Part shown: positions 5,137 to 12,154 of the stretch, in pieces | How the letters are laid out: each line of letters opens with the position of its first letter | Numbering within the stretch: the stretch's first letter is position 1 | From: Thermoplasmata archaeon | GTDB lineage: Archaea > Thermoplasmatota > Thermoplasmata > Lutacidiplasmatales > UBA184 | NCBI GenBank assembly: GCA_013044425.1 | Contig: JABEUK010000043.1 | Coordinates: forward strand, 1 to 14,572 | Direction: 5' to 3' | DNA length: 14,572 nucleotides | The notes under the pieces: model-generated | Told to the model about the DNA's origin: nothing | Seen by the model: the letters and a program-made list of their open reading frames with translations, nothing else | Databases searched by the model: none | Translations under genes and position numbers: made by a program

Positions 5137-6171
5137 ATGATGCAAGAGTCGAAGACGGGGAGCGGAGTGCTCCCCCGCGCCGCGCCCAAGAGCCCCCTCG
5201 TGCCGCCCGCTTCGCCGACAGCGGTGGAGCCCGCCTGGAGGGATCCGCTGACCTTGACATCGCGCTCGATCGAGTTCGATGAGGATTCCCTGCCGGAGCA
5301 CTTCTTTCGACAGCTCGTCGCGGCGTATCTGTCGGGAGCCGATGAGATCACGATCGAAAGCCGGGCGCGGCTCCCCAAGGCGGCCCCTGCGGTGGTTCAG
5401 ATATTCCTGGGCCGGATCGGTACCGGAGTCGTCTACCGGGAGGGCGCCGGTCAGTTCGTAATCCGCGGCCTCGATGCCTTCGACCATCATCAATTCTCCT
5501 CGATGACGCGCCATCTGGGTGAGGCAGTCCTGGAACGCCTCCGACTCGCGGGAAGCGATCCTTCCGCTCCTATTGCCGAAGGGAAGTGGGAGGCCGAAGA
5601 CGACTCGATCGACCGCTGGGCTTGGGCGGTACATCGTCAGGTGGTCCGCTGCTGGGAAGGACGGTGTCCCGAAGGATGGGCAGACGAGGACCGGATCGAT
5701 CCCATCGGCTGGCTGGAGGCCTCTCGGGCGCTCGAGCGAATCGGCGACCATGCCGTCGCAATCGGAATCCACGCGGGCCGCTGGAAGGCGACGCAGCCTC
5801 CCGAGAGCGAGCGGGCGCTCCTTGCGGCGTTCCATGGACAGGCGTGCGACTACCTCGCAAACACTCTGGGTCTACTCGGAGAGACCCAGATTTCGGTCGC
5901 AAACTCCCTGCTGGACCAGGGTGAGGCGCTCCGGGAGACGACGCGAACATTGGTGGACCGACTGCTGGTATCGCGCGAAGGGAGTACGGTTCCATCCCCC
6001 GCTGCGGTCGTGGCCATCGGCTGGGTCCTCCACTCGCTAGAACGCGTCATTGCCTATGCGACGGACATCGCGGAAGTAGGGTTGGATCGCGCGGTGGCCA
6101 TGCCCTCCTCCGCCTCCTCGCAGACACCGTCCTTCAATCAAGGACACGAACGGAGGAAACCGAAACAATGA
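5137..6171 (+). CDS. PhoU-domain phosphate uptake regulator, archaeal long form
   Basis: This 344-residue protein opens the phosphate operon. Archaeal long PhoU proteins usually have an N-terminal AbrB/SpoVT-like DNA-binding domain, then a linker domain, then two PhoU three-helix repeats. Here the linker is recognisable (FFRQLVAAYLSGADEITIE, residues 56-74, through about 135). The first PhoU repeat contains IDRWAWAVHRQV (158-169) and the metal-binding type motif ALERIGDHAVAIG (198-210). The second contains SLERVIAYATDIAEV (300-314). The first ~45 residues are Pro/Ala-rich and do not show a clear AbrB fold, so the DNA-binding domain seems lost or degenerate. The C-terminal ~25 residues are a polar tail. 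The gene follows a leaderless TATA promoter and overlaps pstS by ATGA. Its role is probably control of Pst activity or transcription. Confidence 0.8.
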   Translation: MMQESKTGSGVLPRAAPKSPLVPPASPTAVEPAWRDPLTLTSRSIEFDEDSLPEHFFRQLVAAYLSGADEITIESRARLPKAAPAVVQIFLGRIGTGVVYREGAGQFVIRGLDAFDHHQFSSMTRHLGEAVLERLRLAGSDPSAPIAEGKWEAEDDSIDRWAWAVHRQVVRCWEGRCPEGWADEDRIDPIGWLEASRALERIGDHAVAIGIHAGRWKATQPPESERALLAAFHGQACDYLANTLGLLGETQISVANSLLDQGEALRETTRTLVDRLLVSREGSTVPSPAAVVAIGWVLHSLERVIAYATDIAEVGLDRAVAMPSSASSQTPSFNQGHERRKPKQ

Positions 6172-7418
6172 GCGGAAGAGCGAACGAGCCGCCAGCGACG
6201 AACGATTCCCTATCTGCCGCGGCACCGCGGCGCCCTCGACGGGCGATGATCGGGGCAGGATTGGCCGTTGCGATCGGCGTGATCCTCCTCGTGGCGGGCC
6301 TAGGTGGAGGGTATCTGATCGGCAAGGGCGCGGGGGGAAGTTCTAACGGAACGAACACCGTGACGATTACGGAGACCGGATCGACGCTGATCTATCCCTA
6401 TCTGCTCGTGCTTGCCCCTAGCTTCGAGAGTGTCTACTCGAACGTGGTGCTTTCGCCTGCCGGGACAGGTAGTGGTACCGGCATCAGTTCGGCCGAGTCG
6501 GGCACGGTCGACCTGGGTGGAACTGACGCGTATCTGACGCCGAGCGTCGCAGCCCAGCACAACCTGATCAACTTCCCGATTGCGATATCGTCGCAGCTCG
6601 CTGTCTACAACATCCCGGGGATCACCCAGCACCTCAACCTGAACGCGACGGTGCTTTCGATGATCTATCAGGGCGCCATCACGCAGTGGAACGATCCCAT
6701 GATCCAGGCGGCGAATCCCGGGGTGAGCCTCCCGGCCCATACCATCATTCCCATTCACCGGACGGACGGAAGCGGGGACACGTTCATGTGGACGTCCCTG
6801 TGCTACATGGCATGGTCCGGCTGGAAGCAAAGCTATGGGACCTCCATCACCTGGCCCGTGGGCCCGGGGGCCCAGGGTAACCCGGGGATGGTGCAGCTCC
6901 TATCGACCACGCCGTACGGATTGGCGTATATCGGGATCAGCTATCTGTCGGAGATCGAAGCTGCCAGCGGGCTTCAGTGGGCGGCCCTCGGGGATAACAA
7001 CGCCGACTACAACGGGGTCGTAACCGCGTCGGGAGCCGGTCAGCAGAACTACATTCTCCCCTCCGCGCAGAACATCAGCGAGGACGCGAACCTGGGGTTG
7101 CTGAACCTGCAGCCGCCGAGCGTCGCCGTCAGCCTGATCCTCGGAGGGGTCCCGGGAGCTACCAACCTCGTGAACGGCCGGGGAGGGACGAATGCCACCG
7201 CGGCCTACCCGACCCCCTACCCCGACACGAACCTGGAGTACCTTCTCGTATCGAGCGCACCGGCGAGCTCATCCCATCAGACCTGGGTTCTCGCGTTCTT
7301 GGAGTGGGCCCTCGCATACGGAGGAACCTATGCACCGAAGGTCTCGTTCCTACCGCTGACACCGGCGGTGATCGGATACGATATGCTGGCGCTGAACCAG
7401 GTTGCGATCGGCGGGTGA
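6168..7418 (+). CDS. pstS: Phosphate ABC transporter substrate-binding protein PstS
   Basis: PstS binds inorganic phosphate outside the membrane and delivers it to PstCA. The 416-residue protein has a basic N-terminus, one hydrophobic helix (residues 27-49) and then a Gly/Ser linker, so it is probably membrane-anchored; I see no lipobox cysteine. Phosphate-pocket motifs are ETGSTLIYP (69-77), AGTGSGTG (98-105), GGTDAYLT (117-124) and HRTDGSGDTFMW (197-208). The last matches the R-x-D-G-S-G-T loop of bacterial PstS. The interdomain segment IYQGAITQWNDP (166-177) is also typical. The start overlaps the phoU1 stop (ATGA), with GGAGG at 6152-6156 as a somewhat distant ribosome binding site. Confidence 0.94.
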   Translation: MSGRANEPPATNDSLSAAAPRRPRRAMIGAGLAVAIGVILLVAGLGGGYLIGKGAGGSSNGTNTVTITETGSTLIYPYLLVLAPSFESVYSNVVLSPAGTGSGTGISSAESGTVDLGGTDAYLTPSVAAQHNLINFPIAISSQLAVYNIPGITQHLNLNATVLSMIYQGAITQWNDPMIQAANPGVSLPAHTIIPIHRTDGSGDTFMWTSLCYMAWSGWKQSYGTSITWPVGPGAQGNPGMVQLLSTTPYGLAYIGISYLSEIEAASGLQWAALGDNNADYNGVVTASGAGQQNYILPSAQNISEDANLGLLNLQPPSVAVSLILGGVPGATNLVNGRGGTNATAAYPTPYPDTNLEYLLVSSAPASSSHQTWVLAFLEWALAYGGTYAPKVSFLPLTPAVIGYDMLALNQVAIGG

Positions 7419-7444
7419 GATAGGAGAACCGAGTAGTACCCGTA

Positions 7445-8494
7445 ATGCCCGAGCCCGAACCCGACCGTGAACCCCTTCCCGCGGAGGCGGCAGGCTCCCG
7501 ACCCGCCGCCCCCGCACCATCTACCCGGCTCGGAATCCCGCGGAGCTGGTGGTCGTGGATTGGGAGCCCAGTGGCGCTCCTTCCCTTCTTGATCCTGGCA
7601 CTGATCACCGGCGTCCTCCTGAATGCGAGCGCCTTGCGAAACTTCGGTTGGTCGTTCTGGAGCTTCAGCTACAATTTCCTCCCGCAGACCCCGGACCAGT
7701 CGAGTTGGGGAATCGGGGTCTTCGTTCTCGGTACCGCCCTGACCGCCGGATTGGCCATCGTGTTCGCCACGCTCTTGAGCCTCGCCTTGGCGGTTTCGGT
7801 GGTGGTCTACCTTCCGTCGGGCCCCAGCCGGGTGCTGAACATGCTCACGAACCTGCTCGCGGGGATCCCGAGCGTCGTCTACGGTATCTGGGGATTCGTC
7901 ATTCTCGCTCCATACTTTGGGATCACGGTCGAACCGACGCTGCGATCGTTCCTCTTCTGGCTCCCGGGATTCGGGGGCCCCGCGTCGGCGATTGGGTCCT
8001 GGGGGATTCTGCTCGCGGTTTTCCTTCTGACGATCATGATCATACCTCTGACCACGGCGCTCATGCGCTCGGCCCTGCAGAGCGTGCCCCGCGATCTGGT
8101 CGACTCGGCGGTCGCTCTCGGGGCTACTCGCTGGGAGGTTGCCCGCCGAGTGCGCTTTAGGGTGGCCCGGCGGGGGCTCTCAAGCGCGGTCTTGCTGGGC
8201 CTCGGCCGTGCTCTCGGGGAGAGCGTCGCGGTGGCGATGGTCATCGGCGGCGTGACGAGCCTTCCCGTGAGCTTGTACTCCGCCTCGACGAGTCTCCCGT
8301 CCTTCATCTTCTTCCAGCTCGACAGTGCGTTCACGTATCCCGATCTCCTCGTGCTGCTCGTTGAGTTCGCGCTCGTTCTGTTGATCATCACGATGGTAGT
8401 GAACATAATCGCCCAGCGCCTCACCCAGACGGAGCTTGCGACCGCCACGACGGTCGGAACGCTGGTGGGCCGGGAAGGGGAGCTCGAACGATGA
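7445..8494 (+). CDS. pstC: Phosphate ABC transporter permease PstC
   Basis: This is one of the two channel subunits of the phosphate importer. The 349-residue protein has an acidic/Pro-rich cytoplasmic N-tail of about 35 residues, followed by six membrane helices. The PstC signature LLAGIPSVVYGIWGFVILAP is at 137-156. The EAA loop that docks on PstB starts VDSAVALGATRWEVARRV (219-236) and is followed by GLGRALGES (252-260). It lies 26 bp after pstS, the only non-overlapping junction in the operon. A GGAG at 7423-7426 is too far from the ATG to be a convincing ribosome binding site. It overlaps pstA by ATGA. Confidence 0.94.
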   Translation: MPEPEPDREPLPAEAAGSRPAAPAPSTRLGIPRSWWSWIGSPVALLPFLILALITGVLLNASALRNFGWSFWSFSYNFLPQTPDQSSWGIGVFVLGTALTAGLAIVFATLLSLALAVSVVVYLPSGPSRVLNMLTNLLAGIPSVVYGIWGFVILAPYFGITVEPTLRSFLFWLPGFGGPASAIGSWGILLAVFLLTIMIIPLTTALMRSALQSVPRDLVDSAVALGATRWEVARRVRFRVARRGLSSAVLLGLGRALGESVAVAMVIGGVTSLPVSLYSASTSLPSFIFFQLDSAFTYPDLLVLLVEFALVLLIITMVVNIIAQRLTQTELATATTVGTLVGREGELER

Positions 8495-9408
8495 CCGCAG
8501 GAGCGGAGGGCCTGGGGGAGGAAGCCCCGGCGCTGACCTACGCCTCCGTCTCGGGACGGACGCGCCGGCGGCTGATCTTCGACCGATTCATCCCGTGGCT
8601 GCTTCCTCTCGCTTTCGTGGTCGTGCTGTTCCCGTTGTTCGACATGATTTTCTGGGTAGCTCAGAAGGCGGTGCCGACCTTCACCTTGGCTACTTTGACC
8701 GAGACCCAGGTCGGGTTCGGTGGAGGACTCTACTCGATGATCCTCGGGACCTTGGTCCTGATCGCTATCGGAACGGCGATCGCTACCGGAATCGGCATGG
8801 CCGCCGGGTTTTACACGGCGGAGTACGCGCCCCGCCCCGTGGCCACCTTCGGTCGGCTCGCGGGCAACATCCTGGCCGGCGTTCCTGCGATCGTCCTCGG
8901 CTACTTCGGATACTATCTGCTCGTCCTCTACACGAACTGGGGCTTCACGACGCTCGCCGGAGGAATCGTGCTCGGAATCTTCATGACCCCTTACGTCTAC
9001 CGCACCACGGACCTGGCGCTGACGAGCGTCCCTCCGACTCAGCGGGAAGCGGCGCTCGCGATGGGCGCACGGCCGCGTCAATATCTCCTTCGGATCGCGT
9101 TCCCGATTGCGCTCCCCACCGTCCTTACGGGAATCTTCTTCGCCATGGCCCTCGGGCTCGGAGAGGCGGCTCCCATTGTCTATACGGCGGGGTGGAGTTC
9201 CACCCCGATCACCGGCCTCATGCAGCCCACCTCCTTCTTGACCGGAGCGATTTGGCTGTTCTACGACCTCCCCCCCTCCGAAGGAACGCTCCTCACCCTA
9301 GCGTTCCAGGCGGCGTTCCTGTTGATCCTCATCGTCCTCGGCCTGAACGTGATCGTTCAACTCCTCTCGGACCGATTCCGCCGGCGCCTGCAGGGGCTCT
9401 TCGAATGA
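8491..9408 (+). CDS. pstA: Phosphate ABC transporter permease PstA
   Basis: This is the second channel subunit, 305 residues, with six hydrophobic helices. The PstA-type segments are AAGFYTAEYAP (104-114), LAGVPAIVLGYFGYYLL (128-144) and the EAA loop QREAALAMGARPRQYLLRI (184-202), followed by LGLGEAAPIVYTAG (221-234). The start overlaps the pstC stop (ATGA), with AGGGGAG at 8476-8482 as a well-placed ribosome binding site. It overlaps pstB by ATGA, consistent with equimolar translation of the complex. Confidence 0.94.
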   Translation: MTAGAEGLGEEAPALTYASVSGRTRRRLIFDRFIPWLLPLAFVVVLFPLFDMIFWVAQKAVPTFTLATLTETQVGFGGGLYSMILGTLVLIAIGTAIATGIGMAAGFYTAEYAPRPVATFGRLAGNILAGVPAIVLGYFGYYLLVLYTNWGFTTLAGGIVLGIFMTPYVYRTTDLALTSVPPTQREAALAMGARPRQYLLRIAFPIALPTVLTGIFFAMALGLGEAAPIVYTAGWSSTPITGLMQPTSFLTGAIWLFYDLPPSEGTLLTLAFQAAFLLILIVLGLNVIVQLLSDRFRRRLQGLFE

Positions 9409-10184
9409 GCGCGGAAGGCGTTCCGACACCCAACGGCGTGGCCCTCCGCGTTCGTCATCTCTACGTCCGTGCACGAGACCGCACAATCCTGACGGACATC
9501 TCGATCGACATCCCCGACAAGGAAGTGACGGCGGTCATCGGACCGTCCGGTTGCGGCAAGACGACGTTCATCCGGTCCCTCAATCGGATGACCGAGACCA
9601 CGCAGGGGCTCACCGTCCAAGGCTCGGTCCTGTACCGGGGCCAGGAGATCTATAGTCCGTCGGTCGCCCCGGTCCTCGTTCGTCAACGGATTGGCATGGT
9701 CTTCCAGCGTCCGACCGTCTTCCCCATCAGCGTCTACGAGAACGTCGCCTTCGGCCTCCGACTCGAGCACCAGCCCGAGGATCGAATCGAGCAGGAGGTC
9801 CAGCATTCGCTCGTGCGCGCCGGGGTCTGGGAGGAGGTCAAGAATGATCTCGACCGGCCGGCGCTCTCCCTCTCGGGGGGCCAGCAGCAGCGGATCTGCA
9901 TCGCGCGGGCCCTCGCGGTGCGGCCGCGGATACTGTTGATGGACGAACCGACCGCGAGCCTAGACCCGGTCTCCACTCAGCGCGTCGAGGCGACGCTCGA
10001 GGAACTCAGCCAGGAGATTAGCATCGTCATGGTTACCCACAGCATCGCCCAAGCGGCTCGGGCATCCACCCGAACGGCGTATTTGTATCAAGGAAGGCTC
10101 ATTGAGGAGGGCTCGACCGAGGAACTATTCGAACGTCCTAAACAAAAGCTAACGGAGGAGTACGTGACCGGGAGGTTCGGATGA
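9405..10184 (+). CDS. pstB: Phosphate ABC transporter ATP-binding protein PstB
   Basis: This ATPase drives phosphate import. The 259-residue protein has all ABC motifs: Walker A GPSGCGKT (46-53), Q-loop Gln101 in [17 protein letters not shown], signature LSGGQQQR (156-163), Walker [14 protein letters not shown] (176-188) and the switch His212. FIRSLNRM after Walker A and the [12 protein letters not shown] segment are typical of PstB. The frame stays open far upstream, but the ATG at 9405 overlaps the pstA stop and begins the family-like sequence, so it is the real start. It overlaps phoU2 by ATGA. Confidence 0.95.
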
Positions 10185-10924
10185 GCCAGGGTCCCGCGCC
10201 GCCGGGAGAGCCTCCGGCCGGCATCGATCGCGAGTTGGAGAAGCTACGCGCCAGCGCCGTAGGGCTGGGTCAGTGGTCCCTCGGCATGGTGCACGACGGG
10301 TGGGACGCCTTCGATCGGGGGGATCTGGCCCTCGCACAAGCCGTGCTTGATCGCGACGATCGCCTCGATCAGCTCGATCAGGAAATCGAGCACGAGACGG
10401 TTGCCTTCCTAGTGACTCGGCGCCCCGCGGCGGTGGCGCTGCGCACCACCGTCGCCGTGCTCAAGGCCTCCACCCACCTCGACCGCATCGGCCGGCTCGG
10501 GTTCGACATCGCCCGGATGACCACGGGGGGTCCACCGGGCGGCAACCCCGAAGTCCGTGCGCTTCTTCAGTCGATGGACCGGCTGGCGGAATCGATGGTG
10601 CAGGATTCGCTCGAGTCGCTCGCGCAAGGGCACTCGGAGCTGGCCCGAGGGTTGTTCGTTCGGGACGACCAGATGGACCAGATGCACCGTCAGACCATGC
10701 GGCTCATCGTTCGAGAGCTTGAGCACGACCCTCCCTCCGCCCCGCGCCTTTCCAGCGAGCTGATGGCGGCACGGCACTTCGAGCGCATCGCCGATAATGC
10801 GTGCAAGATCGGCGAGAAGACGATCTACGCGATCACGGGCCAGCGTCGGTCGGAGTATCTTCCGCGGCACCCGTACACCCCGTATGCGCTCGAGCGACGT
10901 GACGGGTTCTCGCCGCACCGGTAG
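10181..10924 (+). CDS. phoU: Phosphate transport regulator PhoU, canonical short form
   Basis: This is a two-repeat, all-helical regulator of the Pst system. In bacteria PhoU restrains PstSCAB and signals phosphate sufficiency. The 247-residue protein has the repeat acidic motif around DRDDRLDQLDQEIE (57-70) and again RDDQMDQMHRQ (161-171). The metal-site helices are HLDRIGRLGFDIA (99-111, where the usual E of the motif is D) and the better conserved HFERIADNACKIGE (199-212). The length is near that of bacterial PhoU, plus short polar tails. The start overlaps the pstB stop, with GGGAGG at 10170-10175. It is the last gene of the operon and is unlike phoU1 in sequence and length, so it is not a recent duplicate. 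The convergent phosphatase ends 14 bp downstream. Confidence 0.9.
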   Translation: MSQGPAPPGEPPAGIDRELEKLRASAVGLGQWSLGMVHDGWDAFDRGDLALAQAVLDRDDRLDQLDQEIEHETVAFLVTRRPAAVALRTTVAVLKASTHLDRIGRLGFDIARMTTGGPPGGNPEVRALLQSMDRLAESMVQDSLESLAQGHSELARGLFVRDDQMDQMHRQTMRLIVRELEHDPPSAPRLSSELMAARHFERIADNACKIGEKTIYAITGQRRSEYLPRHPYTPYALERRDGFSPHR

Positions 10925-10938
10925 GCTCCACGGCGGTC

Positions 10939-11835
10939 CTACGCACCGGGGCCGAAGGCTCGGCCTTCGGTCTTGAGGTGCTCGATCGAGACCTGCGAGG
11001 TAGCGCGCGTCCGGCCTTGCAAGGGAAGGCGCCCGAGGATCACGCCACCGTACCCCTCGTACGCGCGCGTGCTGTGGAGTGTGAGGCAGCGATCCCGAAA
11101 GACCGAACGGCCCGTGAGGTCGGGATCGTGGCCGCGCAGCATGAAGGATAGGCCCGCACGGTCCAGAAACGAGGTCAGTTCCGCCTCGCCAAACGGTGTT
11201 CCCTGCCCTCTTCGACTTCGGGAGGCCGCGCACTCCGCCCAGGCCAGCTGCGCGACGAGCGGTTCATCGCGACGATCGAAAGCCGCCCTCCAGTCGTGGG
11301 GGTCGCCCCCCGTCGGGAACCCCGCATGCGCGAGGTACGGCCCCGAGGAGTGAAACGCCGCGAGGGGCCCGCGTCCGAGAAGGTCGATCAGCCTCTCGTA
11401 CCGGCCCGGCTCGACTCCCCAGAGGTCACGGACCTCCCGACTCAGGGATTCCGGCCTCACGGGGATCGAGCGAACGGTCTCGTGATTCCCCTGGATGAGG
11501 ATAACGCGATCCGGCTCGCGTGCGGTACACTGGAGTAGATAGAGTGCGTTCGCCACGCTCCCGGCTCCGCAATCGCCGGGAGTGCGATCCACGTAGTCCC
11601 CCAGGCCGATCAGGAGGCGGCGCCGAGTTGGTTCCTGATATCGTTCGACGATCGCCTGCGTTGTGCGCCAGTCGCCGTGAGTATCCCCAAACACGATCGC
11701 TTCCTCGGCCCGGAACGAAGAGAGGTCGAGCAAGGTGGGCCACGTCCGCACGTCCCTCTCGAGCCGGTCCAACAACCGGTCCGCTTCGTCCGCGGAGAGC
11801 TTCAGGATTCCGGCCGGGCCCACGAGTTCACTCAC
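10939..11835 (-). CDS. PPP-family metallophosphatase (serine/threonine protein phosphatase-like)
   Basis: This 298-residue protein has the complete PPP signature: GDTHG (50-54), GDYVDR (79-84), GNHE (116-119), AHAG (169-172), RGHD (234-237) and a final metal/phosphate His at 254. These form the two-metal site that hydrolyses phosphomonoesters. The full GDxHG/GDxVDRG-like/GNHE set points to the protein phosphatase (PP1/PP2A-like) branch rather than a generic metallophosphoesterase, though the substrate is not known. About 45 residues precede the core. The start is GTG 11835 (GTG 11823 is an alternative); an in-frame TGA seven codons upstream rules out a longer protein. The tRNA-Leu gene ends 34 bp upstream on the same strand and no separate TATA box is evident, so it may be read through from the tRNA promoter. 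Confidence 0.88.
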   Translation of the reverse strand: MSELVGPAGILKLSADEADRLLDRLERDVRTWPTLLDLSSFRAEEAIVFGDTHGDWRTTQAIVERYQEPTRRRLLIGLGDYVDRTPGDCGAGSVANALYLLQCTAREPDRVILIQGNHETVRSIPVRPESLSREVRDLWGVEPGRYERLIDLLGRGPLAAFHSSGPYLAHAGFPTGGDPHDWRAAFDRRDEPLVAQLAWAECAASRSRRGQGTPFGEAELTSFLDRAGLSFMLRGHDPDLTGRSVFRDRCLTLHSTRAYEGYGGVILGRLPLQGRTRATSQVSIEHLKTEGRAFGPGA

Positions 11836-11883
11836 AGTGCCCCGTTCCGTGGCTCAAGGGCGGGTCGGATGCGGGGGGCCGGA

Positions 11884-11918
11884 AGTTCCGGAGACCGACG
11901 TCGCGCGTCGGACCTCCC
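11884..11918 (-). other. tRNA-Leu intron 2 (35 nt, T-loop, position 59/60)
   Basis: The exon helix is the T-stem GCCGG/CCGGC. The central helix is TTCA with GGAA (three Watson-Crick pairs plus A-G), with bulges AAG and CTT. The intron hairpin has GGAG/CTCC and CCGACG/CGTCGG stems. Excision leaves the consensus T-loop TTCAAAT. Confidence 0.82.
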
Positions 11919-11966
11919 TTTGAACCGGCGAATGCCCTAGGCAACAGGGTCCTAAGCCCTGCCTCG

Positions 11967-11996
11967 CGAGCCCCGTTCGAGATGGTCCCGAACGGA
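11967..11996 (-). other. tRNA-Leu intron 1 (30 nt, D-arm, position 21/22)
   Basis: The central BHB helix is GGCC (exon) with GGCT (intron 3' end), including one G-U pair. The flanking 3-nt bulges are AAT and CGC. The intron itself folds as a 10-bp hairpin (CCGTTCGGGA with TCTCGAACGG, loop CCA). Cutting after the second base of each bulge restores a D-arm with a 3-bp stem CTC/GAG. The outer exon helix is weak (TTC/GAG), so this is a relaxed BHB, and the exact cut could shift by a base. Confidence 0.78.
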
Positions 11997-12047
11997 TTGG
12001 CCGAACTGGAGCACCCCCGCAACCATGGATATCGTGAGCCCTGGGAG

Positions 12048-12154
12048 TAGCCCCGGCAGGATTTCCGGCGCGTGGATTCGCGGACCCACTCGGCGTTCGA
12101 ACCTGCGTCGCAGGATCCAGAGTCCCGCATGATTGGCCACTACACTACGGGGCT
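12048..12154 (-). tRNA. tRNA-Gln (anticodon CUG) with T-loop intron
   Basis: The 107-nt gene gives a 73-nt mature tRNA. Acceptor AGCCCCG pairs with CGGGGCT, with discriminator A. The D-arm is GTGTAGTGGCCAATCAT. Anticodon stem CGGGA/TCCTG encloses loop CTCTGGA (anticodon CTG). The variable loop is CGAC, and T-stem GCAGG/CCTGC encloses TTCGAAT after splicing. Exon 1 is 12154-12096 and exon 2 is 12061-12048. The 3' CCA is not encoded. It lies upstream of tRNA-Leu on the minus strand, with a TATA-like element at the right distance. Without removing the intron the T-arm cannot close, which would hide it from simple searches. Confidence 0.9.
12062..12095 (-). other. tRNA-Gln intron (34 nt, T-loop, position 59/60)
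   Basis: The BHB is nearly ideal. The T-stem GCAGG/CCTGC is the exon helix. TTCG pairs with CGGA as the 4-bp central helix (one T-G), and the 3-nt bulges are AAC and AAT. A 6-bp intron hairpin has GTGGGT/ATCCAC around CCGCGA. Cleavage after the second base of each bulge joins TTCGAA to T, restoring the consensus T-loop. Confidence 0.86.

Follow-up and report, generated by a model that had tools for sequence, protein, structure and literature searches.

Can a tRNA gene be interrupted twice, both times outside the anticodon loop, in a member of the Thermoplasmatota, and if so, what kind of enzyme would excise the inserts? These questions are raised by a tRNA-Leu(UAG) locus of a Thermoplasmata archaeon (assembly GCA_013044425.1, contig JABEUK010000043.1). 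The whole stretch of DNA analyzed, 14,572 nt in length, will be called the window. A sequence-only reading had proposed that this gene is split by two introns with BHB structures at both junctions, that the removal of such introns needs a splicing endonuclease of broad specificity, and that the arrangement would be unusual if the genome proved to be of Thermoplasmatota type. The genome does belong to that phylum, and the reviews consulted do not expect such introns there. Euryarchaeota are described as having introns in <10% of their tRNA genes, singly and at position 37/38, together with endonucleases of the α4 or α2 type (PMC4090602).

Anatomy of the Two tRNA Genes

The tRNA-Leu(UAG) gene extends over 151 nt of the minus strand (12020..11870), from G1 at 12020 to the discriminator A73 at 11870; the strand had not been given before. 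Exon 1 (11997..12020, 24 nt) comprises positions 1-21, GCGGGGG UG CUCC AGUUCGGCCAA, and is followed by a 30 nt intron in the D-loop after A21 (11967..11996). Exon 2 (11919..11966, 48 nt) contains the 3′ side of the D-stem, the anticodon arm, the variable arm, the 5′ side of the T-stem and the T-loop segment UUCAAA. A second intron of 35 nt (11884..11918) separates A59 from U60 in the T-loop (the 59/60 site), and the 14 nt of exon 3 (11870..11883) supply U60, the T-stem strand CCGGC, the acceptor strand CCCCCGC and the discriminator A73. All these segments lie on the minus strand. Removal of both introns leaves a tRNA of 86 nt, in which the T-loop reads UUCAAAU. The anticodon arm CAGGG-CUUAGGA-CCCUG is unbroken, with UAG at 11954..11952, and there is no insert at 37/38. 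Coordinates, sizes and insertion sites are exactly those that had been proposed, and the consensus T-loop, the intact anticodon arm and the unoccupied 37/38 site are likewise as described.

The assignment of BHB structures holds fully for only one of the two junctions, when the motif is taken as two 3 nt bulges and a central helix of 4 bp. In the D-loop intron, exon GGCC (12002-11999) pairs with intron GGCU (11972-11969), giving four pairs of which one is a G·U in the window; the bulges are AA^U and CG^C, and the inner hairpin is CCGUUCG/CGAACGG. In the T-loop intron the motif is present in part. Exon UUC (54-56) pairs with intron GAA and an intron G stands opposite A57, so that there are three pairs plus A57·G, with bulges AA^G and CU^U60. 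An unconstrained fold of the Leu precursor already contains the hairpins of both inserts as well as the central helix formed by GGCC. In the D-arm of this precursor, positions 16-17a (CUC or UUC) can form an outer helix with GAG 23-25. After splicing the same GAG pairs with CUC 10-12 to make the mature D-stem, so that 16-17a act as a stand-in within the precursor.

Beyond what the earlier reading had noticed, introns of the same kind are found in the adjacent tRNA-Gln gene and in another ten tRNA genes of this genome. The tRNA-Gln(CUG) gene (12154..12048, minus strand) ends 27 nt before the start of tRNA-Leu. Its first exon covers positions 1-59 (12096..12154, minus strand), its 34 nt intron occupies the 59/60 site (12062..12095, minus strand), and its second exon (12048..12061, minus strand) consists of U60, the T-stem strand CCUGC, the acceptor strand CGGGGCU and A73. 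Here the BHB is complete, exon UUCG pairing with intron CGGA between bulges AA^C and AA^U60; the inner helix is interrupted in the window. The spliced forms of both genes, 86 nt for Leu and 73 nt for Gln, parse as tRNAs. The unconstrained minimum free energy fold of spliced Leu keeps the acceptor, anticodon and T stems and lacks the 3 bp D-stem; for spliced Gln the corresponding fold does not have a cloverleaf shape.

Downstream, the tRNA pair adjoins a gene for a calcineurin-like phosphoesterase (10939..11835, minus strand; PF00149), which served as a synteny anchor. Positions 5137-10924 of the window hold a phosphate uptake block made up of a PhoU-like gene, a phosphate-binding-like gene, two permeases, an ATPase-like stretch and PhoU; five of these were assigned by Pfam and the ATPase by eye.

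Detection of the Genes

The genes were parsed with a purpose-written tRNA scanner that permits one D-loop, one anticodon-loop and one T-loop intron per gene. Leu scored 52 and Gln 57. When the window and 30 tRNA loci were shuffled with their dinucleotide composition kept, the resulting 1,126,188 bases × strands produced two hits, scoring 46 and 48; no score reached 50. ARAGORN missed the Leu gene and placed the 3′ end of Gln wrongly. An Rfam cmscan of the window returned no match at E ≤ 1, and a search of the genome with the Rfam tRNA family gave at this locus a weak partial match to Gln (E 0.34), leaving Leu unmatched. Since such genes were missed or mis-cut here by ARAGORN and the Rfam tRNA model, annotations resting on those two will undercount tRNAs; tRNAscan-SE does search for non-canonical introns.

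Might the locus then consist of one or two decaying tRNA pseudogenes that have acquired hairpin insertions while a normal copy does the work? The inserts disrupt the cloverleaf, and the behavior of ARAGORN and Rfam is what a pseudogene could produce. The assembly is moreover 83% complete, and an intronless second Leu(UAG) gene could lie in the missing part. A second gene of this kind, which had been named beforehand as an argument against the proposal, was not found in the 83%-complete assembly, where the only strong match is the interrupted gene itself. In a genome of the same genus that is listed as 100% complete (G004), the sole Leu(UAG) among 43 parsed genes is again the interrupted one.

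Filled and Empty Intron Sites in Relatives

A search with the phosphoesterase gene yielded 44 named loci, of which 43 hold the upstream flank (it is missing from L035). The tRNA pair adjoins the phosphoesterase gene in all 43, with Gln truncated at a contig end in L004. All 43 have the Leu T-loop intron and 42 of them the Leu D-loop intron, and all 42 parsed Gln genes contain their T-loop intron. The exception, L032, lacks exactly the Leu D-loop intron, as does L099 from a search of the phylum. Conversely, in L105 and L107 (the latter identical to L162), from two other genera of the same family, the D-loop intron is present and the Leu T-loop is an intact UUCGAAU. Thus both Leu intron sites occur in an occupied and in an empty state; the exon join expected at the D site occurs naturally in L032 and L099, and the uninterrupted T-loop in L105 and L107. 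For Gln, the phylum search with its exon listed 30 loci. Eleven of these belong to the family (the window included) and have the intron; in 16 from other families, one with a Gln(UUG) gene, the Gln T-loop is uninterrupted; and three were unparsed.

Across the 43 named relatives the Leu and Gln exons are near invariant as judged by eye, while the introns diverge and keep their helices. In the named relatives (L002-L045) the Leu D-loop intron measures 24, 27, 30 or 33 nt in all 42 that have it. The Leu T-loop intron is 32, 35 or 38 nt long in 41 of 43, lengths of 33 and 34 nt also occurring, and the Gln intron is 34 nt long in all 42 parsed genes despite its diverged sequence. Steps of three are not strict outside the named relatives, the D-loop intron of L097 and L105 being 35 nt by the same count. 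These lengths raised the idea of a coding overlap. One sense frame of the Leu gene is indeed open in 43 of 43 loci, but this is no evidence of a gene because two other frames are also open, in 40 and 38 of the 43, and the idea was dropped.

Covariation was analyzed for the Leu D-loop intron in the 33 relatives with a 27 nt intron (32 distinct sequences), other lengths and L032 being left out. In most relatives exon GGCC pairs with GGCY at the 3′ end of the intron, with bulges AA^N and NN^C. The fraction of cells paired in the 33 is 100% in the outer, 99.2% in the central and 88.3% in the inner helix, and two-sided changes are seen in seven of the eight inner pairs. The covariation score is 0.403, against a mean of 0.146 for shuffled alignments (0 of 500 as high) and at most 0.108 for slid versions, in a comparison where the shuffles ignore relatedness and where the structure, being derived from the same sequences, is favored over its slid versions. 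When pairs with two-sided changes are simply counted, 305 of 500 shuffles match the observed number. For the Gln intron the same comparison was less discriminating in score, with 0.178 vs 0.175 for the version slid by −1, and 83.8% vs 60.0% of cells paired. Its central helix UUCG/CGRR is 100% paired in 40 distinct sequences. In the inner helix 69.3% of cells are paired, with two-sided changes in eight of ten pairs, a number reached by 131 of 500 shuffles.

The near-invariant exons beside diverging introns, and the helices that covary, count against decaying genes. On this conservation and covariation we reject the pseudogene reading, which now appears highly improbable, and return to the reading of a genuine gene with two introns.

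Introns across the Genome, the Family and the Phylum

How widespread are such introns? The genome, at 83% completeness, has 34 tRNA genes, of which 17 contain a total of 19 introns; this count includes two identical Arg-CCG copies and covers the genes found by the Rfam model or by the T-arm model described below. Twelve introns are in the T-loop (Gln CUG, Leu UAG, Asn, Gly UCC, Ser GGA, Ser CGA, Arg UCU, Arg UCG, Ala GGC, Asp, His and Lys UUU), four in the D-loop (Leu UAG, Lys UUU, initiator Met and Arg GCG) and three at 37/38 (Met, Trp and Leu UAA). In the genome of the same genus listed as complete, introns occur in 20 of the 43 tRNA genes that were parsed from Rfam and T-arm model hits; there are 22, with 14 in the T-loop, four in the D-loop and four at 37/38, and both Leu UAG and Lys UUU carry two.

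The T-arm model (R1) is a covariance model of the T-arm with its intron, trained on the family with 21 realigned of 26 sequences. Hairpin loops in its alignment were padded with N, MAFFT having misplaced the 3′ ends of T-arms of mixed length. It matched 14 of 14 genomes of the family, with 4-12 matches each, and 14 of 278 other genomes of the phylum, with 1-5 each, all of these counts being lower bounds owing to the bias of the model toward the family and to strict filters. In G004, for example, 12 matches passed the strict filters of the large search, against 14 T-loop introns found by parsing. Two genomes were searched from the other family in the order, and neither had a match. Of 11 matches fetched from outside the family, ten parse as whole tRNAs with a T-loop intron (L158 was unparsed), among them two Lys UUU genes with D- and T-loop introns and three Trp genes with introns at 37/38 and in the T-loop.

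Several of these genes deserve individual mention. The tRNA-Lys(UUU) with D- and T-loop introns is found in L135 (the same genome as the window, match C142:8067-8121), L149, L154 and L155, which between them represent the family of the window and two more of the class (G315 and G267); this second two-intron tRNA is perhaps older than the family. The Trp genes that combine a T-loop intron with a long one at 37/38 (L156, L157 and L159) come from distant Thermoplasmatota genomes. In L160 (reverse strand) and L180, from the other family of the order, the match to the Gln exon ends just past the anticodon; a lengthy stretch rich in hairpins comes next, which may be a 37/38 intron of very large size. 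In L072 and L206 the D-loop intron of Arg(GCG) apparently lies, by eye, before G18G19 rather than after A21, which is perhaps a second D-loop site. In a genome from another branch of the phylum (L177-L179; genome G106, family f12), T-loop introns are found in Arg CCU, Leu UAG (19 nt) and Ala CGC; their pairing is normal, with C opposite G57 and U opposite A57. A viral-contig scan gave one weak match.

The named relatives are labeled Thermoplasmata archaeon, Euryarchaeota archaeon (one), bacterium (one) and Ca. Lutacidiplasma silvani (L028). From these names and the shared synteny we infer that the window derives from Thermoplasmatota of the Lutacidiplasmatales type. The Lutacidiplasmatales are described as comprising the AcS and SubAcS isolates, in a single family with several genera (PMC9287336). 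The main text of that paper contains neither "intron" nor "splicing", and the open-licence literature searched yielded no paper that treats non-canonical tRNA introns in Lutacidiplasmatales or elsewhere in the Thermoplasmatota.

The occupation of one site, 59/60, in so many isoacceptors invites the idea that the introns have spread recently by transposition among tRNA genes, as in Thermoproteales. This should leave its mark on the sequences. Intron cores were compared in four genomes, with 5-10 orthologous pairs per comparison. The cores of different tRNAs resemble each other no more closely within a genome (means 0.38-0.45) than between genomes (0.38-0.43), whereas orthologous cores are slightly more alike (means 0.44-0.52). 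Core similarity in these genomes thus gives no support to recent transposition, which we regard as quite improbable, although it would be compatible with the explanation we favor; the introns may have been transposed long ago and then have diverged.

Pairing Opposite Position 57

The T-loop introns of the family follow a common pattern, which we examined in 131 distinct sequences. In 129 of them, each of positions 54-56 pairs with the 3′ end of the intron, and 128 have the first inner pair; a mismatch at 56 is found in the Asn intron of the genome that includes the window. The partner of position 57 depends on its identity. Where it is G, the intron nucleotide opposite is C in 61 of 61. Where it is A, the intron nucleotide is G in 66 of 70 (with U in two, and C and A in one each), many of these 70 being Leu orthologues and so not independent. 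In the introns parsed outside the family, A57 is opposite U in 4 of 4 and G57 opposite C in 6 of 6. In the A57 class of the family, therefore, A·G replaces the fourth Watson-Crick pair of the central helix (66 of 70), and because of this the motif is not fully strict. The simplest guess is that an A·G closing pair is tolerated, or preferred, by the enzyme of the family.

The Splicing Endonuclease

What enzyme might remove these introns? PF01974 is found in 59 of 61 genomes of the family. In 58 of the 59 there are two matches about 0.5-0.6 kb apart in the same open frame; the 59th is the genome that includes the window, where the gene is cut by a contig end, which leaves unit 2 and, of unit 1, just the tail. 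The protein thus has the α′2 arrangement of two fused units in one open reading frame, with a C-terminal Tyr-His-Lys triad. The Y, H and K positions are conserved in 19 relatives and align with those of M. jannaschii and A. fulgidus; we take these residues to be the triad of the enzyme. In the 19 relatives the protein is 353-359 amino acids long as trimmed, from putative start codons, and it is predicted to form a homodimer. The best matches among solved structures are M. kandleri 5x89 and A. fulgidus 1r0v.

Broad-specificity enzymes of the (αβ)2 or ε2 type were sought by Pfam in the 61 family genomes. The heterotetrameric or epsilon-type endonuclease that the sequence-only reading had suggested looking for was not found there: there was no β gene or three-unit protein, and no CSL or ASL loop was seen. 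Two A. fulgidus entries, 1r0v and 3p1y, served to locate the place of the CSL; the ASL entry 4fz2 was among the matches. The entry 3p1y, presumably A. fulgidus EndA with an added crenarchaeal loop (CSL), is ten residues longer than the family protein between YG and LS. Over this stretch the family protein aligns without gaps to wild-type A. fulgidus and M. jannaschii, and some alignments have one extra residue just before YG. The claim that a broad-specificity enzyme is needed is therefore not borne out by the gene that was found, a two-unit α′2 without the loop, read from the relatives where that of the window's own genome is cut by the contig end. Across the phylum PF01974 occurs in at least 105 of 116 genomes among the matches listed, frequently as a pair of matches that share a frame; in other families some genomes among the matches listed have it only once at the cut-off used.

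Specificity could still be broad, either through an extra subunit that was missed or through an α′2 relaxed by point changes and not by a loop. The family-specific A57·G (66 of 70, vs none of four outside) and the high intron load speak for this, as do reviews that tie non-canonical introns to broad enzymes, which are held to have driven intron diversity (PMC4033280; PMC12397907), endonuclease loops and introns co-evolving (PMC12397907). A strongly diverged subunit could escape a Pfam search. Homodimeric enzymes have also been credited with cutting BHL-like motifs (PMC8707768; PMC6379350). PMC6379350 classes the α′2 enzymes of both T. acidophilum and A. fulgidus as narrow, a point against the explanation favored below. 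Set against a broad enzyme, a single gene was found in the family genomes, of a two-unit type whose arrangement is common in the phylum, there is no loop insertion, and most junctions are near-strict BHBs. On balance we consider a broad-specificity enzyme unlikely, though it deserves serious weight.

Discussion

The explanation that we favor, and hold to be very probable, is that this is a genuine tRNA-Leu(UAG) gene with two BHB introns, part of a family-wide bloom of non-canonical introns, mainly at 59/60. Each precursor would form a near-strict BHB at its site, and the α′2 endonuclease, acting as the predicted dimer, would cut after the second nucleotide of each 3 nt bulge. The exons would be joined by RtcB, the gene for which is present in the genome, and removal of the introns would restore the D-stem and the T-loop. 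Splicing of the Leu introns is thus predicted from the sequences. A changed intron place needs no changed type of enzyme in this scheme, because the BHB itself is near strict.

A wider statement is more tentative, and we would put it at slightly less than an even chance: that a whole family with a loop-less α′2 enzyme has most of its introns outside the anticodon loop, chiefly at 59/60, and uses a family-specific BHB code in which A57 faces an intron G and not U. If true, intron place and enzyme type are not tied together, and the α′2 enzyme here, or the RNA, has become adapted to a closing pair of two purines. As far as intron position goes, the family offers a counterexample from nature to the reviews. 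The enzyme side is less surprising than the intron count, because homodimers have been reported to cut a minimal BHB, in the case of the Ferroplasma enzyme (PMC8707768), and have been credited with BHL-like motifs. Of the two α′2 enzymes listed as narrow, that of A. fulgidus is able to excise BHL introns at 37/38 when the substrate is full-length pre-tRNA (PMC6379350). Filled and empty versions of one site in close relatives permit direct tests of the cutting range of α′2.

Neither the kind of intron nor the site is new, 59/60 being already among the known positions (PMC4090602). What looks new within the literature searched is the lineage, the load, a loop-less α′2 beside such a load, and the A57·G rule. 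Multiple introns in Euryarchaeota have been listed for M. kandleri and M. thermautotrophicus, and also for ARMAN-1 and 2 (PMC4033280).

The closest in kind are the Thermoproteales, in which BHB introns are likewise found in the D- and T-arms, with up to three per gene (PMC4090602; PMC8450103). Their endonucleases, in contrast, are heterotetrameric (PMC4090602), and they have 0.84 introns per gene, against 0.21 overall (PMC8450103), compared with 22/43 = 0.51 in G004. Unlike in Thermoproteales, the 59/60 site dominates here, and there are no near-identical introns between tRNAs in the four genomes compared. Korarchaeum resembles the present family in combining an α2-type enzyme with non-canonical introns, and in 2014 was called the only such archaeon; its enzyme, however, shares a specific loop of the (αβ)2 type (PMC4033280), where the enzyme here has no insertion. 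The Asgard Atabeyarchaeia and Freyarchaeia are, as here, wetland soil archaea outside the Thermoproteales that are rich in tRNA introns, which often lie at non-canonical positions and number more than one per gene (PMC11291895). They belong to another phylum, and have introns in 92-95% of their tRNA genes as against 20 of 43 in G004. The red alga Cyanidioschyzon merolae also has introns of hBHBh′ form in the D-stem and T-loop of one tRNA, with anticodon-arm introns in its tRNAs as well, and modification of the T-loop by cmPus4 is reported to wait there for removal of the T-loop intron (PMC9602550). It differs in being a eukaryote, with a Sen-type endonuclease.
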